Part shown: positions 2,940 through 12,585 of the stretch, in pieces | Layout of the letters: each line of letters begins with the position of its first letter | Numbering within the stretch: position 1 is the first letter of the stretch | Source: Candidatus Aenigmatarchaeota archaeon | GTDB taxonomy: Archaea; Aenigmatarchaeota; Aenigmatarchaeia; Aenigmatarchaeales; JAHLMR01 | Length of the DNA: 41,037 nucleotides | Reading direction: 5' to 3' | Assembly: GCA_018920255.1 (NCBI GenBank) | Contig: JAHLMR010000004.1 | Span: 1-41,037, forward strand | Made by a program: the position numbers and the translations under genes | Notes under the pieces: model-generated | The model's database searches: none | What the model saw: only the letters and a program-made list of their open reading frames with translations | What the model was told of the DNA's origin: nothing

Positions 2940-2985
2940 ATATTTAAATAGTTTTTCTTTTTAAAAAATATAAAGGTTGATAACT

Positions 2986-3408
2986 ATGGTAAAATATGAA
3001 GAGATTAAAGAAATTTTAATGAGAACATTTAATGATTTAACTAATTATAAGATAGATTGTATTCCTGTTGGAAGCAATAGTATCGATGATAAAATTTATT
3101 GTTTAAGAATTTTTTATGAAAATTCAAAAGGAGATAAACCTGAACAATATTCAAAAAAAGTCCAAAAAATTGCTTCACAGATAGCAAAAATTAAAATAAG
3201 CGACGATAATAATAACGAGAATAATAAGATTTTTGAAAATCTTACACTTCCTGAATTTGAAATGCCTTCTGATGGTTGTGTAGGATTGTTCGAGTTTTCT
3301 TCAAAAATTTCATTAGATGACCTTAAAAAATACTTTGAAACAATAAAAAATCATTTAAATGATTATAAAAATAATAACTCTCAAAAGAAAAGTTTATTTG
3401 ATTTTTGA
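2986..3408 (+). CDS. Hypothetical protein (about 140 aa)
   Basis: ORF with ATG at 2986 after a GGTTGAT SD-like site; no family recognised. Confidence 0.6.
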   Translation: MVKYEEIKEILMRTFNDLTNYKIDCIPVGSNSIDDKIYCLRIFYENSKGDKPEQYSKKVQKIASQIAKIKISDDNNNENNKIFENLTLPEFEMPSDGCVGLFEFSSKISLDDLKKYFETIKNHLNDYKNNNSQKKSLFDF

Positions 3409-3474
3409 ATTTAAAAAATTCTTTTTAGATATTTTTCAATATTTATAAACTTATCTACTATAAAATAATTAATT

Positions 3475-4944
3475 ATGTATCTTTCACTAGAAGATTGTAT
3501 AAATAAAATTAATGAAGCTATATCCATTACTATTATAGGAAGAGATGATCCTTCTATTAATGCTGCGATGGATTTTTTTAATGCATTAAAAGAAAATAAA
3601 GAAATTAAATTTGAAGTTTCAGAAAGATCAAATATCTTAAATAGAGATATTTATAAAATTATTGAAAATAATAAAGATTTAGTTTTATTTCTTGGAATTT
3701 ATCCTCAATCATATAGTATATTTAAAAATTCTAATATGAAAAACATAATAAAATTTACAGATTCGATTGATGTAGGAAATGAAAAAAGCTACCTTGTAAA
3801 TAGAAATAATCTTCCTGCAATACCAGAAGAGTTTTCTCCAACAACATCGTTTGCAAATACTGCATATAAAATTATTAAAGAGTTAATACCATCTTATGAA
3901 CCTACTGATGAGATTGCAAAAAAAGCATTTATTGGGGACTATGATGATAATTTAAAATTAGAACCTACAAAATTTCAGAAAGAAATAGCAAAATATATAA
4001 AAAATTATGATGAAAAAAATGAAATTCCAAACTTTGATAGTGTGAGTATATTAAATTTTTATCCATTTTTCTTTTTAAAATTTATTGAAAAAGAAGATTT
4101 TAGAAAAAATATTAAAAGTATAGAAGGAAGAAAAAATATTGTAAATGAAATTTTAAGATATTGTAATTTAGATGAAAATATTTTAATAAAAGAACTTGAA
4201 AAACGCGGTTTACCACATGATATTATTTACTCTCCTAGAATAGATGGTTCTAATAAAATAGAAGTATTAAGAAAAATAGGATATAACAAAAAAATTAATA
4301 ATAATACTTCAAAAGAAATAATTAAAACTCATATTTCAGAATTTATTTCCGGAAAAATAAATTCAAAAATAATTAAAGGTAATCATCCTGTATCATGCGA
4401 TGAAAAAGAAATAGATTTAATATGTTTACAAACAGAAAAAAATATTAATTTAATGGGTTTTACAGAAATTTTAACCTTTCTTCCAAATGATTCGATTTTT
4501 ATCGTTTATAGAAATAATAATAATAACATTTATACTTCTTATGCAATTTTTTCAAAGTCAGATATTCATGCAGGATTATTATGCAGTTTAGGGTCAGTAA
4601 AGAAAAATAAAAACCTGAGAGGAAGAGGTAGTGGAGAAATAGATAAAGCACTTGGATATAGAAATTTAATAGAAGATTCTCCGGTAACATATGAATGGGT
4701 ATTGAAAAATTTTTTAAAAAAATCTTGTAGCTCAACATCATATGCTGATAAATCTACATATAAATCATTTTACGGACAACCTTCTGCTTTAGAAATCAAT
4801 CAAAAGGATGGCTCAATAAAATATAGTTTATTCTATTTACCATGGGAAGGAAATGTTATATTTGATTGTAATAAAGATGAATATGAAAATTTTTGTAAAA
4901 AATATGGATCAAAAGCTGAAATATTTAAAGTATTTTATGATTAA
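3475..4944 (+). CDS. Putative degenerate DHH/RecJ-like (GAN/Cdc45-like) protein
   Basis: Overall DHH-phosphoesterase-like layout (SITIIGRDDPSINAAMDFFNALKE; LPAIPEEFSPTTSFANTAYKIIKELIP) without intact DHH or DxD motifs; near the S3Ae gene. Confidence 0.5.
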   Translation: MYLSLEDCINKINEAISITIIGRDDPSINAAMDFFNALKENKEIKFEVSERSNILNRDIYKIIENNKDLVLFLGIYPQSYSIFKNSNMKNIIKFTDSIDVGNEKSYLVNRNNLPAIPEEFSPTTSFANTAYKIIKELIPSYEPTDEIAKKAFIGDYDDNLKLEPTKFQKEIAKYIKNYDEKNEIPNFDSVSILNFYPFFFLKFIEKEDFRKNIKSIEGRKNIVNEILRYCNLDENILIKELEKRGLPHDIIYSPRIDGSNKIEVLRKIGYNKKINNNTSKEIIKTHISEFISGKINSKIIKGNHPVSCDEKEIDLICLQTEKNINLMGFTEILTFLPNDSIFIVYRNNNNNIYTSYAIFSKSDIHAGLLCSLGSVKKNKNLRGRGSGEIDKALGYRNLIEDSPVTYEWVLKNFLKKSCSSTSYADKSTYKSFYGQPSALEINQKDGSIKYSLFYLPWEGNVIFDCNKDEYENFCKKYGSKAEIFKVFYD

Positions 4945-6239
4945 ATTTCTTTTTCTTTTGTTGATATAATTTTTAATTTAATAACTTTTCTTAACTCTTC
5001 TGGTAAGTTTTTATAATTTTCTAAAATTCCTTTTTCTATATTTTCTAAAGAAGTTTGTGTTTCTATGCTAAATAATCCTTCTTCAATAATTTTCTTTTTT
5101 TGTTCTGTTATTTTATTGCTTGAAATATGTTCTATTATTTTAGAAAAATAACAACTATCATCATTTGAACCTATTGGGATTGAAAGTTTTGTTATATCAT
5201 TTTTTTCAATAATAACAATTGGTACTTCAATTGGTTTTAAGTTATTTATTTTTTCAGATAGATTTTTACCTATTTCATGCTTTTTATAAACATCATCAAT
5301 GTACTTTTTCATTTCACAGCATTTTTCAATCTGAGAAACTGTTTCGGTATAAGTATTAATTATATTTTCATTTTTCCCTTTATTAGATTCTAATGTTTTT
5401 ATTAGGTTCTGTTTTATAGATTCTGGCATGTCTGAAATAGCACCAAACAATAATCTATTTAGATATTCTAATTCTTCTTTAGCTGTTTTTGCTTCATTTT
5501 CTAATTTTTTAATTTCTTCATCATTTTTAGTTAATTTATTTATTTTTTCTAGATCTTCTTTTGACCTTATTTCTTGATATTTTTCACTAATTAATTTTAT
5601 TGGATCTTCTTTAGACATTTTTAATGCTTCAAATAAATATTCTGCAGAGCACCCCGGATCTGGAATGCTATTTTTTAAAGCTTCATCATATTTTTTTAAA
5701 TTTTGGCTTAAACCTTTAAGTTTTGTTTCTAAGAATTCTGGTAAATCCATTTTACTGTAATTATTTAATTGTGTTTTAAGATTTTGATTTTCATGCTGTA
5801 ATTTTTGATTTTCATTTTGCAATTTTTCATTTTCATCTTTATGAAACTTAATTTGATAATCTTTGTGTTCAATATCTTTTTGTATTTCATTAATCTCTTT
5901 TTCAAGTTTTTTTATTCTACTTTCATATGGTTTTAATATATTTTCATAATCTTTGTCATTTTTTTCACTGTTTTTTATTTCATTTTCTTTATAAGTGAAT
6001 TCTTTTATTTTAAAAGAAGTGTCTCCTAATCGTTTTTGAAAATCAGAAACTATTTTTTTAATATGCCCTTCAGATTCCTCTGGAACGTTTTCAATGATTA
6101 TTCTACATGAATCGCCATCAACTTTTACCTTTACATTATTATAAAAACTTCTTAATCCACCAGAAAGTTTTTTCCTTAAATCGTATATATTTGCTCCTTT
6201 TCCATCATATTCTAATTCATATGCTCCCAACGTCAACAC
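4941..6239 (-). CDS. Long coiled-coil protein, unknown function
   Basis: 432-aa ORF with extended heptad-rich region (EKLQNENQKLQHENQNLKTQLNN). Confidence 0.7.
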   Translation of the reverse strand: MLTLGAYELEYDGKGANIYDLRKKLSGGLRSFYNNVKVKVDGDSCRIIIENVPEESEGHIKKIVSDFQKRLGDTSFKIKEFTYKENEIKNSEKNDKDYENILKPYESRIKKLEKEINEIQKDIEHKDYQIKFHKDENEKLQNENQKLQHENQNLKTQLNNYSKMDLPEFLETKLKGLSQNLKKYDEALKNSIPDPGCSAEYLFEALKMSKEDPIKLISEKYQEIRSKEDLEKINKLTKNDEEIKKLENEAKTAKEELEYLNRLLFGAISDMPESIKQNLIKTLESNKGKNENIINTYTETVSQIEKCCEMKKYIDDVYKKHEIGKNLSEKINNLKPIEVPIVIIEKNDITKLSIPIGSNDDSCYFSKIIEHISSNKITEQKKKIIEEGLFSIETQTSLENIEKGILENYKNLPEELRKVIKLKIISTKEKEI

Positions 6240-6348
6240 CTAAAATTTTATTACAAAACAATAAGTATTTAAATTTTTAGACAAATAACAAAATCTTTAT
6301 AAAGTTTTATAAATATTGAAATTCTAATTAAATAATCGAGTGAAAATT

Positions 6349-6921
6349 ATGGCTGTACAAAAAACAAAACAATTTAAAAAAGAATGGATTAAAATAATTT
6401 CACCAGAAGTTTTTGGAAATGTTGAAATAGGAGAATCTCCAGTCATGGAGTTAGAAAATTGTATTGGAAGGGTTATTGAAACGAGTTTATATGAGCTAAC
6501 TGGAGATGCAAGTAAATATTATATTAATTTACTTTTTAAGATAAATAAAATAGAAGGTGCACATGCAAAAACAGTTTTTCATGGACATTATTGCACGAGT
6601 GATTTTATATCAAGAATTGTTCAACCCAGAACTTCAAGAGTTGATATTATATTACCTGTAAAATTTAAAGATGCTTCTTTGATATTAAAAATGATTGCAA
6701 TAACAAATAGAAGAGTTGGAAAAAGAATAGCAAGTGAAATAAGGAAAAAAGTTAGTGAAATAGTAAAAAATTATGCTGAACAAACAGATTTGAACACGTT
6801 CTTAAAAAGTTTTATTTCTGGTCAAATTCAAACACAAATAAGGCAAGAAGCCAATAAAATTTATCCACTAAGAATTTTTGAAATACATAAATCAGAAGTT
6901 CAAAGTTTAGAAAAGCTTTAA
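6349..6921 (+). CDS. rps3ae: 30S ribosomal protein S3Ae (eS1)
   Basis: MAVQKTKQFKKEWIKIISPEVFGNVEIGES...HYCTSDFISRIVQPRTSRVD; ATG at 6349 preferred over GTG at 6340. Confidence 0.93.
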   Translation: MAVQKTKQFKKEWIKIISPEVFGNVEIGESPVMELENCIGRVIETSLYELTGDASKYYINLLFKINKIEGAHAKTVFHGHYCTSDFISRIVQPRTSRVDIILPVKFKDASLILKMIAITNRRVGKRIASEIRKKVSEIVKNYAEQTDLNTFLKSFISGQIQTQIRQEANKIYPLRIFEIHKSEVQSLEKL

Positions 6922-7279: not shown

Positions 7280-8785
7280 ATGCAAAATTATATAGGAACA
7301 GTTATTTCTACAGAAGATACACCAAATATTTATGAGTTTAAATTTATAATAACTTCAAATGTTAAAGCCGGGCAATATATTTCTGTTAATACAAATGAAG
7401 GTGAATATATAGGAAAAATAAAAAATATAATAAAAATAAGTCCTTATTTTCAAAATCCTGATGCTGTAAAAGAAATTGAAAAAACTGGTAGTTCTATTTC
7501 AGAAGTTTTTCCATCTGATAACTGGGAATATCTTATTGGAGATGTTGAAGTTATTGGTTTATTTAATAATGGTAATATATCTAAAGCATATTTTCCAGTA
7601 ACCCCTGGTGCAAAAGTATATATCGCAAAAAATTATATTCTTGAAAAAATTTTTGGTTTTGATTTAGAAAATGGTTTAAATCTTGGAAAAATAGAACATC
7701 ATAATTTAGATGTAAAAATAAATATGTCAAAGCTTCTTAAAAAACATCTTGCAGTTCTTGCTATGTCTGGGGCAGGTAAATCATATTTTACTTCTGTATT
7801 AATAGAAGAACTATTAGATAAAAAAGAAAACGAACAGCCTGCAATAATATTAATAGATCCTCATGGAGAATATTCTGGTTTTAATGATGATTTAAACTAT
7901 AGAAAAAAAGTAAATTTAATAAAGGGAAAAGATTTTAAAATTTCTGTACCTACATTGAACGCAGAATTTTTAATAGATTTAATGCCTGATCCATCTTCTG
8001 TACAAAAAAGAGAATTGAGAAGAATATTTTCAATTGTAAAAGAAAAATATAGAAATACTGCTTATAATTTAGATAAAATTATTGAAGAATTAAACAACGA
8101 TGAAGAAATTAAATCTGACACAAAAAATATTTTATTAAATTTTTTAGAAGATTTAAATGATACAGGAATTTTTGCTGAATTTGATAATCCATCACTTGAA
8201 AAAATTACAAGACAAGGACATCTTACAATTATCGATATTTCAGATATAACAGAATTAAGAGAAAAAAGAATAATAGTAGCCATCCTTGCAAAAAAATTAT
8301 TTCTTGCTAGAAGAGCAAATATAATTCCTCCTTTTCTTTTTATTGTTGAAGAAGCACATAATTTTGCTCCTCAACAAGTTAAGAAAGAAAATGCAATAAG
8401 TAAAAATATAATAGAAAAAATTGCAAGAGAGGGAAGAAAATTTTATGCTTGTTTATGTTTAATATCTCAAAGACCTGTACATTTAAGTACTACAGCAATA
8501 TCTCAATGTAATACTCATGTTTTATTAAGAATTACAAATCCTTATGATATACAGCATATTCAAGAGAGCTGTGAAGGTATAACTGGAGAATCTGTAAAAA
8601 TTTTACCTTCGCTTAAAGTTGGTGAAGCAATCGTTGTTGGGGAGGCTGTTAACTTTCCTATTCAATTAAAAGTTAGAGAAATGAAAAGTAAGTTTAGAAA
8701 AAGCGATGTTTCTCTTGAAGAAGCATGTAAAAAATTTGCTTGTGAAAAATTAAAATTTGAAGAAGATGCTAAAGCATTTTTTTAA
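7280..8785 (+). CDS. herA: HerA-like (DUF87) ATPase/helicase
   Basis: Walker A AMSGAGKSYFTS, Walker B LFIVEEAHNF, IAREGRKF, C-terminal HerA features. Confidence 0.85.
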   Translation: MQNYIGTVISTEDTPNIYEFKFIITSNVKAGQYISVNTNEGEYIGKIKNIIKISPYFQNPDAVKEIEKTGSSISEVFPSDNWEYLIGDVEVIGLFNNGNISKAYFPVTPGAKVYIAKNYILEKIFGFDLENGLNLGKIEHHNLDVKINMSKLLKKHLAVLAMSGAGKSYFTSVLIEELLDKKENEQPAIILIDPHGEYSGFNDDLNYRKKVNLIKGKDFKISVPTLNAEFLIDLMPDPSSVQKRELRRIFSIVKEKYRNTAYNLDKIIEELNNDEEIKSDTKNILLNFLEDLNDTGIFAEFDNPSLEKITRQGHLTIIDISDITELREKRIIVAILAKKLFLARRANIIPPFLFIVEEAHNFAPQQVKKENAISKNIIEKIAREGRKFYACLCLISQRPVHLSTTAISQCNTHVLLRITNPYDIQHIQESCEGITGESVKILPSLKVGEAIVVGEAVNFPIQLKVREMKSKFRKSDVSLEEACKKFACEKLKFEEDAKAFF

Positions 8786-9843
8786 ATTGGTCCATGCAAA
8801 TAATGATTCAAAACTTCTTCGGGTGTTAATGGACGGTTCCAAACACGGACTTCATCGATTGTTCCATTGAAAGACCATGCACCATCATTTGTTGCACCAA
8901 TAGTTAATGGAGAGACTCTTTCTATAATATCTCCTGAATGAAGTTTTGTTATAAAACTATCATTTACATAAAGTATCATCATACTTTTATTATATATACC
9001 TGCTATATAATACCATTGATTTAATGAAATAGGTGTATTACTATCTATCTGATTACAAGTTGTAGAATTTGATATTCTAAAATAAGCATAAGATGAAATA
9101 AAAATTTCAAATGGATTATTAAGATTGCATCCGCCATTACTTCTTTCAATAATTCCAAATGTTCCACTTGTACTATTTTTTATCCAAACTTCTATACTAA
9201 TACTTTTTAAAACACCAAAACTTTTAGAATAAGATATATTTACCATTCCACCGCCTTTATTTCCATTTCCTGTTCCGTTTGAAAATGTTAAACAAGAATT
9301 ATATTTACAATATTGGCCTGTATTCCAAGAAACATTTGAACCGCCAACCAAAATTCCGTCGTTTCCATAAATAGAAGAATCATAAGCAATTGTCCCTGAA
9401 CCTTCATCAAATTTCCAATATCCAACTAAACTTGGGTCTGAATTTTCTTTTCCAACTTGTTTTGTTTGCACAACTCCAGGAATTGTTATTTTTAAAGTCC
9501 TCGGATAAGAATAATCAATAAAATCATAAACAAAAAATGTATAAATTTCCCCTGGATTAACTATTTTTGAAGAATTAGTAAAATTAACTGGTTTTTCATC
9601 TACATAAATTGCAAAATTTGTTATTGGGGTTTGTCCTGTATTTCTAATTGTTATTTGTTTTCCGCTAACTGCTTCTATAACAAAGTTTTGGGACATTCCT
9701 GTTGTAATTTGTGAAATTCCAGAACTTGCTGTTGAAGTTGTTTGGGAAAAAATACTAGAAAAGAAAAGATATCCTGCAGATGCTAAACTAACAGTTATTA
9801 ATAAAATTAAAACAACTGCTATTATTGCTGAAATTCCCTGCAT
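8782..9843 (-). CDS. Type IV pilin-like protein with C-terminal LamG/concanavalin-like domain
   Basis: N-terminal MQGISAIIAVVLILLITVSLASAGYLFF class III-like signal; LVGYWKFDEGSGTIAYDSSIYGNDG LamG-type repeat and IDEVRVWNRPLTPEEVLNHY. Confidence 0.82.
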   Translation of the reverse strand: MQGISAIIAVVLILLITVSLASAGYLFFSSIFSQTTSTASSGISQITTGMSQNFVIEAVSGKQITIRNTGQTPITNFAIYVDEKPVNFTNSSKIVNPGEIYTFFVYDFIDYSYPRTLKITIPGVVQTKQVGKENSDPSLVGYWKFDEGSGTIAYDSSIYGNDGILVGGSNVSWNTGQYCKYNSCLTFSNGTGNGNKGGGMVNISYSKSFGVLKSISIEVWIKNSTSGTFGIIERSNGGCNLNNPFEIFISSYAYFRISNSTTCNQIDSNTPISLNQWYYIAGIYNKSMMILYVNDSFITKLHSGDIIERVSPLTIGATNDGAWSFNGTIDEVRVWNRPLTPEEVLNHYLHGPI

Positions 9844-9925: not shown

Positions 9926-10753
9926 ATGGTAATTAAAAATTTTTTAAAATTTTTAGTAAATAGTAATGTATATTTAGCTATTGGTGCTGGTATAAATGCG
10001 ATTGTTGTAGCATTTTTATTAAATATGCCAATACTTTTAGAAATATTCTTTATACCGTTTTCAGGAAGTTTTTTTATTTATAATCTTAATAGAATAAGTG
10101 ATATAAAAGAAGATACTCTAAATCTACCAGAAAGAGTTAATTTTATAAAAAAATATGGAAAAAAAATATTTTTTATTTCCTTTATTTTTTATTTAATTGC
10201 TTTAATATTATCTTTTTTAAAAAATATAATTGTTGGTATTGTTGTTTTAATACCAGTAATAATTGCAATATTTTATTCATTTTTTAGATTGAAAAAAATT
10301 ACATTTATAAAAAATATTTTAGTTGGTTTTGCATGGGCATTTGGAAATTGTGTATTAGTTTATAGCTTTTTTAATATATGGAATCTTCAAAGTATAATAT
10401 TTTTCTTAATTTTCTTTTTATCATTTACAATAAATACAATAATATTTGATATAAAAGACATAACAGGTGATAGAATACAAAATATTATAACAATGCCAGT
10501 AAAATATGGCATTAAAAATACAAAATTAATATTATATGGAATATTTATATTAACAATTTTAATTACGTTTTATTCTTTTCTTTTAAATTTTAATACAATT
10601 ATAATATTTCCATATATAATATTTTTAGGAGTGTGTATAAACTATATAAGAGAAAATAAAAAATATCCTTGGTGGTATTTTGGGGTTGCAGTAGATGGTG
10701 AATTTTTAATTTTATTTTTAAGTTTTATAGTTTACACTTTGATGGTATTATGA
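9926..10753 (+). CDS. UbiA-family prenyltransferase
   Basis: Polytopic membrane protein with Asp-rich motifs NLNRISDIKED and DIKDITGDR. Confidence 0.75.
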   Translation: MVIKNFLKFLVNSNVYLAIGAGINAIVVAFLLNMPILLEIFFIPFSGSFFIYNLNRISDIKEDTLNLPERVNFIKKYGKKIFFISFIFYLIALILSFLKNIIVGIVVLIPVIIAIFYSFFRLKKITFIKNILVGFAWAFGNCVLVYSFFNIWNLQSIIFFLIFFLSFTINTIIFDIKDITGDRIQNIITMPVKYGIKNTKLILYGIFILTILITFYSFLLNFNTIIIFPYIIFLGVCINYIRENKKYPWWYFGVAVDGEFLILFLSFIVYTLMVL

Positions 10754-11865
10754 CAATAAAAGATAAAATAATATTATGGTATTTGAAAAAAATTTATCTT
10801 CCAAAACGTGAAATGTTTTATTATCCTGGATTTATAATGGAAAATTTAGGAACAAAAAATATTTATTTAAGAGAAATAGCTATCCCAGAAGATTTAATAA
10901 TAAATATAGAAAATAAAATACAAGAAAAAATAGCATATGAAATTGGTAAAAAATTTGGTTGGTATTATGCATTTTCTTCTAAATTACCAAGAATAAATGA
11001 AATTGAAAAGAAAAAATTTTTAGAATATGCTAATTTTTTAGTAAAATATATGGAAAGTGTTTCTTATGGTAAAAATTTAAAGGAAAAAATTGATTATGAT
11101 AAAAAAGTATTTCATTTGTTTGCTGATGAATATATAGTTTGTAAAAATAATGGAAAAGGATATATTTTTGGTTCTGGTGGCATAGCTGGAATTTGGGCTT
11201 ATGTTACAAACGATAAAACAATTGAAGGCATACAAATAAAATGTGTTGGAAAAGGAAATAAAAAATGTGAATTTATATGTGCGCCGTTTGAATTTTTAAA
11301 AGAAAAAGGATACAAGCCAATAAGATATATTGAATTGGAAGAAAATGAAATAATAAATAAAGAATATTCGGAAATAAATAAAATAAGAAGTGCGGTTTGG
11401 GCAAAACAATCTTTAAAAAGTTTAATAGATTCTAAAATTATAAAATATCAATTTGGTAATTTAATTTATAAAAATGAAAAATTTTGTCTTGTAGATAGTT
11501 TACTTATGTATCTTATTGAAGATAATATTAAAAAAATAAAGAATTGTGAAAAAATTTTATGGGATTGTTCTTTTGATTTTGGAAGAAAACTTGTAAGATT
11601 ATTTAATATTGAAAATGTTGAAAAATTTATTCAAGATTTATTTCCTGCTTTAGGCTTCGGAGATATTTTTATTAAAAAAGAAAAAAATAAGTATCAAATT
11701 TTTATAAGATGTTTTCCTTGGAATAAATATGAAATTGAATTTATAATATTTAGGGGAATTTTATCTGGATTATTATCAGAGTTTTATAATAAAAAAATAT
11801 TATTAAAATTAATAAGAAAAAAAATTAATAGTGAAGACGGTTTTTCTATATTAATTGGAAATTGA
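10750..11865 (+). CDS. V4R (4-vinyl reductase)-like domain protein, probably tandem
   Basis: FGSGGIAGIWAYVTNDKTIEGIQIKCVGKGNKKCEF plus C-terminal FRGILSGLLSEFYNKKI; ATGA overlap with the UbiA gene. Confidence 0.6.
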   Translation: MTIKDKIILWYLKKIYLPKREMFYYPGFIMENLGTKNIYLREIAIPEDLIINIENKIQEKIAYEIGKKFGWYYAFSSKLPRINEIEKKKFLEYANFLVKYMESVSYGKNLKEKIDYDKKVFHLFADEYIVCKNNGKGYIFGSGGIAGIWAYVTNDKTIEGIQIKCVGKGNKKCEFICAPFEFLKEKGYKPIRYIELEENEIINKEYSEINKIRSAVWAKQSLKSLIDSKIIKYQFGNLIYKNEKFCLVDSLLMYLIEDNIKKIKNCEKILWDCSFDFGRKLVRLFNIENVEKFIQDLFPALGFGDIFIKKEKNKYQIFIRCFPWNKYEIEFIIFRGILSGLLSEFYNKKILLKLIRKKINSEDGFSILIGN

Positions 11866-12519
11866 AATTCCTAAATCTGAAATTTTATAACTTTTAATTT
11901 CTTTTGAATTTTTTGTTCTTCTCATTTTTTTAACTTCTAATGTAAATTCTCTTTGCCCACCTAAATTTGTTGATATTAAATCTATAACTCCATCTGCAAC
12001 ATATTCTACAATATTATATCCATCATTACTTTCTTTTTCTGCAGTAAAAACTGTTGTGCAACCAGTTTCTTTAATTGCATTAATAAGTTTAAATAATTGT
12101 TTTCTCATTTCAAAGGGTTTTTCAAAATATAATGCTAAAGTAGAAACACTATCTATTGCTAATCTTGAAATTTTTTTTCTTCTTATTTCTTCTAAAAGAA
12201 TTTCTATTATATTTGTAACTTGAAATGGATCTTTATATATTATTGTTAATTTTCCTTGCTTTTCATATTTTTCTAAATCCCAACCAAATCTTTTAACATC
12301 ATTTTTCAAATCTTCTGGACTTTCTTCAAGTGTAATAATCATACAATTTTCTCCATTTTTTAATCCTTCATAAATAAATTGAATAACAAAAATAGATTTA
12401 CCTACTCCTGGACCACCATAAACTAAAATATTAGAACCCCTAATAAATCCACCTTCAATCATTTTATCTAAGCCAGGAATGCCTGTAGGAATTCTATCAA
12501 AATCTACATTCTTTGTCAT
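11851..12519 (-). CDS. KaiC/RadA-like P-loop ATPase
   Basis: RIPTGIPGLDKMIEGGFIRGSNILVYGGPGVGKS; ATG at 12519 preceded by GGTGAT. Confidence 0.85.
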   Translation of the reverse strand: MTKNVDFDRIPTGIPGLDKMIEGGFIRGSNILVYGGPGVGKSIFVIQFIYEGLKNGENCMIITLEESPEDLKNDVKRFGWDLEKYEKQGKLTIIYKDPFQVTNIIEILLEEIRRKKISRLAIDSVSTLALYFEKPFEMRKQLFKLINAIKETGCTTVFTAEKESNDGYNIVEYVADGVIDLISTNLGGQREFTLEVKKMRRTKNSKEIKSYKISDLGISISN

Positions 12520-12585
12520 ATAAATCACCTATTATTTATAAATTTTAAAGCATATTTATATAAAGTTTATGGTTCTATAATTATT

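Follow-up and report, generated by a model that had tools for sequence, protein, structure and literature searches.

A 41,037-nt stretch of DNA from a 552-kb archaeal genome (25 contigs, 95% complete), hereafter the window, carries on its + strand, at positions 3475..4944, an open reading frame (P0001) that raises a two-part question: is its product an inactivated relative of the RecJ/GAN phosphoesterases, as an earlier note on this DNA had proposed, and if so, what might such a protein do in a genome that also encodes an intact GAN? The frame that the note had placed at these positions is borne out. It begins with ATG, comprises 489 codons (489 aa) and is maintained without interruption in DNA of 23% GC, where composition alone gives a chance of ~1e-23 for an open frame of this length. 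A TATA-box-like sequence, ATTTATAAAC (3439..3474, +), can be read directly ~25-35 nt 5' of the start codon and suggests transcription of P0001 from a promoter of its own into a leaderless mRNA.

At present sampling P0001 is an orphan. Searches of Pfam and NCBIfam, including the cut-offs of Pfam DHH and RecJ_archaeal, returned zero matches, as did PADLOC; nothing similar was found by sequence search of the PDB, and the two PHROGs matches were weak (E 0.13 and 0.87). No relatives were found among 155 further genomes from the phylum, in GTDB contigs by peptide-pattern search, or in IMG/VR. The comparison set of 156 genomes, which includes the source genome, holds 16 from the same order and none from the same family. 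A partial match in one genome (G057) to residues 381-481 (E 5e-4) was set aside, because a stop interrupts it and it runs across other coding DNA.

Both flanking ORFs are orphans as well. Upstream lies a 143-aa ORF (2977..3408, +) that belongs to no family and has only weak partial matches in the 155 other genomes; downstream, an antisense coiled-coil ORF (4941..6239, -) overlaps the P0001 stop by 4 nt. With P0001 they form a three-gene block between fttA and rps3ae that is richer in Asn and poorer in Ala than most neighbours. Three orphans in a row with such a composition, one of them the candidate RecJ homologue itself and lacking any curated family match, would fit P0001 being simply an unrelated protein in a lineage-specific or acquired insert, its DHH likeness a chance alpha/beta similarity. 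We consider this rather unlikely. The GC3 of P0001 (0.094) is similar to that of its neighbours and of the remaining window, which speaks against this explanation, and a check for a mobile insert around the block found neither an integrase nor clear flanking repeats.

Because the curated models missed P0001, we built RecJ/GAN models from relatives. An HMM of GANs together with short RecJs from a sister family scores P0001 at 15.8 bits, and its positions 12-168 correspond to residues 4-172 (3484..3990, +), that is, to the whole DHH domain. This score was reached by none of 20,000 composition-preserving shuffles of P0001 (the top shuffle had 12.9 bits), a figure that, like the others taken from single models, is somewhat optimistic since several models were tried. 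With this HMM, P0001 is outscored by 46 proteins, every one of them a DHH protein; it ranks above two genuine DHH proteins, and the best non-DHH protein attains 6.8 bits. An HMM from a broader set gave 12.0 bits and a still broader one, with other DHH branches added, 11.6 bits, each equalled by 1 of 20,000 shuffles. The narrowest HMM, of 20 GANs alone, did not distinguish P0001 from chance (6.1 bits); the NrnA-like DHH branch, modelled separately, yielded no match (-4.9 bits), and in a crude glocal PSSM test P0001 fell within the upper tail of unrelated proteins. With hhalign, P0001 fell in the same DHH register over residues 6-159, with P only 0.011. It is because the registers agree across models that we assign a DHH-like N-terminal domain to P0001; the DHH-like layout that the earlier note had perceived there exceeds what chance would produce. 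The same observations, a score unmatched by shuffling and an alignment in register across the entire domain, also weigh against the unrelated-orphan explanation.

Structure prediction, proposed in the earlier note as a comparison with GAN and Cdc45, gave a divided outcome. AlphaFold2 run on the single sequence was uninformative (pLDDT 34), whereas with two GAN rows (L084, L092) in the alignment the first 160 residues form a DHH domain of alternating helices and strands, with pLDDT ~55-78 in most blocks. The best 36 matches of this GAN-guided model in a Foldseek search of the PDB are all RecJ, GAN or Cdc45, with global TM-scores of ~0.25, so that the remainder of P0001 is not modelled. The model is compatible with homology between P0001 and GAN and in that sense supportive, but it is biased by the GAN rows.

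Beyond the N-terminal domain the likeness fades. The short-RecJ model matches residues 248-356 (4216..4542, +) more weakly, at 7.9 bits, a score equalled by 9 of 10,000 shuffles; the match is colinear with the N-terminal domain, and the region adopts a strand-helix-strand-strand order in both AlphaFold2 models, so it may represent the linker and the first DHHA1 strands. P0001 was not detected by a DHHA1-only model or by submodels of the GAN mid-domain and C-terminal part, a CID-type middle domain is not detectable in it, and GGGH is not found. For the N-terminal domain, the description of P0001 as RecJ/GAN-like and inactivated is supported; for the linker and the first strands of DHHA1 the support is weak.

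What remains of the catalytic center can be judged against 16 aligned GANs, all or nearly all of which have H24, D26, D28, D75, D96-H97-H98, D152 and G402-G403-H404 (numbered as in the GAN of the source genome). In P0001 the segment aligned with GAN HxDADG, motif I, reads GRDDPSIN (residues 22-29; 3538..3561, +), with the first Asp kept and the second Asp and the Gly lost. At the DHH position, motif III has become FTDSID (residues 94-99; 3754..3771, +), KFTDS replacing DHH, and an HH dipeptide is absent throughout the protein. The earlier note had read both of these correctly; absent from it were motif II, where LFLGIY (residues 71-76; 3685..3702, +) aligns with GAN IF[TL]D[LI]GS and the Asp is changed to Gly, and motif IV, where FIGDYDD (residues 152-158; 3928..3948, +) aligns with GAN G[AI][IV]GD and the Asp is retained. 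P0001 is left with at most two metal ligands, the first Asp of motif I and the Asp of motif IV, and RecJ-type catalysis is for that reason very unlikely. With HxDxDG reduced to GRDDPS, Gly in place of the motif II Asp, DHH gone and GGGH not found, P0001 has lost the catalytic motifs of RecJ and is probably a catalytically dead derivative of that family. One could instead imagine an active, divergent hydrolase that recruits other ligands from the several Asp residues left near motifs I and IV (D24, D25, D155, D157, D158); with the motif II Asp and the entire DHH missing and GGGH not found, positions that all or nearly all of the aligned GANs preserve, we hold this to be highly improbable.

P0001 is also not the sole RecJ/GAN/Cdc45 of its genome, because the other active RecJ that the earlier note had suggested looking for does exist: a full-length, motif-intact GAN on contig C10 (L064:4693-5997), which scores 359 bits against NCBIfam RecJ_archaeal (cut-off 360). 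It adjoins a predicted Hjc-like Holliday-junction resolvase and a DNA ligase, both named by eye. Besides these, the genome has two further DHH proteins and a single gene each for MCM and GINS. We reject the idea of P0001 as a replacement of GAN, given the intact gene on C10.

The gene neighborhood adds less than it might seem to. S3Ae is encoded in 36 of 40 genomes, at least 18 of which carry a GAN directly upstream of it on the same strand. The gene for S3Ae in the window (6340..6921, +; PF01015, 8.8e-51) does follow P0001 on the same strand, 1.4 kb downstream, so the earlier note was right to call the two close and P0001 shares strand and order with many relatives' GANs; the antisense ORF intervenes, however, and S15 is on another contig. 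There, on contig C2 (L087), S15 lies beside TsaD/Bud32-like genes and an OB-fold protein, and the S15-GAN-S3Ae cluster typical of relatives is dispersed over three contigs in this genome. With that context broken, the argument from rps3ae counts for little. P0001 may be a duplicate that has decayed and stayed next to rps3ae.

These genomic observations bear on whether P0001 acts as a Cdc45-like replisome scaffold with MCM and GINS, in parallel to or instead of the active GAN. The co-occurrence that the earlier note had raised is found, in that MCM and GINS genes are both present in the genome; moreover, inactivated RecJ homologues in Crenarchaeota and Halobacteria have, or are predicted to have, such a role (PMC3307487), and the same-strand order of P0001 and S3Ae would be a weak remnant of the GAN arrangement. 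Set against this are the complete, motif-intact GAN, the undetectable CID, the broken S15-GAN-S3Ae context and the orphan status of P0001, whereas subunits of the replisome tend to be conserved throughout an order. We judge a scaffold of this kind unlikely. Similarly doubtful is the related proposal that in this archaeal lineage the RecJ/GAN function is divided between an active GAN and a separate, catalytically dead paralogue that serves as a dedicated Cdc45-like structural or regulatory subunit at the fork. If true, such a split would add one more independent loss of RecJ activity, observed here with an active copy still in place.

Taken together, the reading we favor, and consider likely, is that P0001 is a strongly diverged, fast-evolving and lineage-restricted DHH member of the RecJ/GAN branch that has lost most metal ligands, likely a duplicate and probably a non-catalytic binding subunit. 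Most likely, a RecJ/GAN gene was duplicated to give P0001, with the active copy found today on a different contig. P0001 would have kept the DHH alpha/beta fold and, with most metal ligands lost, would be incapable of RecJ-type cleavage of nucleic acid. Its probable role would instead be one of binding, either to single-stranded nucleic acid or to another protein, for example GINS or the active GAN.

Compared with the archaeal RecJ/GAN proteins (arCOG00427, NCBIfam NF053576; e.g. Pyrococcus furiosus RecJ, 5x4j, and Thermococcus GAN, 5ghr), P0001 is similar in overall length (489 vs 434 aa) and in the register of its N-terminal DHH domain, but differs in having lost motifs I (second Asp), II and III, in lacking a recognizable GGGH and CID, and in scoring far under the family cut-offs. 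Eukaryotic Cdc45 is a dead RecJ, and P0001 resembles it as a probably dead DHH protein, with Cdc45 among the Foldseek matches of the GAN-guided model; unlike Cdc45, it displays no Cdc45-specific feature that we could detect. How and why Cdc45 lost its nuclease is an open question, and independent archaeal cases of a dead copy beside a live one bear on it.

Independent inactivation of archaeal RecJ homologues has a known precedent (PMC3307487). The inactivated groups are arCOG00428 (Halobacteria), arCOG00432 (Desulfurococcales), arCOG05902 (Sulfolobales) and arCOG05692 (Thermoproteales), which P0001 resembles in its traits: they are RecJ-derived, have lost DHH residues and are in some cases extremely divergent. 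In Halobacteriales and Desulfurococcales the inactivated homologues stand in for an absent arCOG00427 (PMC3307487), unlike P0001, which coexists with a motif-intact GAN. As inactivated archaeal RecJs are already known, what would be new here is a lineage-restricted variant beside an active copy. More generally, curated profiles can overlook replication-type folds hidden among the orphan genes of reduced archaeal genomes.

Variation in the RecJ/GAN complement was also seen elsewhere in the phylum. In one family of the comparison set (f14: G023, G029, G035, G059, G060; loci L101-L105) no full-length GAN match was found, and a short, motif-intact RecJ of 373-377 aa (HHDDADG...DHH...GGGH) is encoded elsewhere in the genome. 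In one of these genomes (G023, locus L079) S15 directly adjoins S3Ae, with no GAN between. Members of this family may lack a GAN bearing the GINS-interaction domain, though most have a GINS gene.

Two further observations concern the remainder of the window. An ORF at 8782-9843 (-) forms a paralogous pair with one at L065:408-1508 (-); the two share a pilin-like N-terminus, MQGISAII.VVLILLIT.SLASAGYLFFSS, and the copy in the window seemingly has a LamG-like C-terminal part. At 9926-12528, a V4R-like protein, a KaiC/RecA-like ATPase and a UbiA-like membrane protein, recognized by eye, lie side by side and possibly constitute a small sensory cluster.
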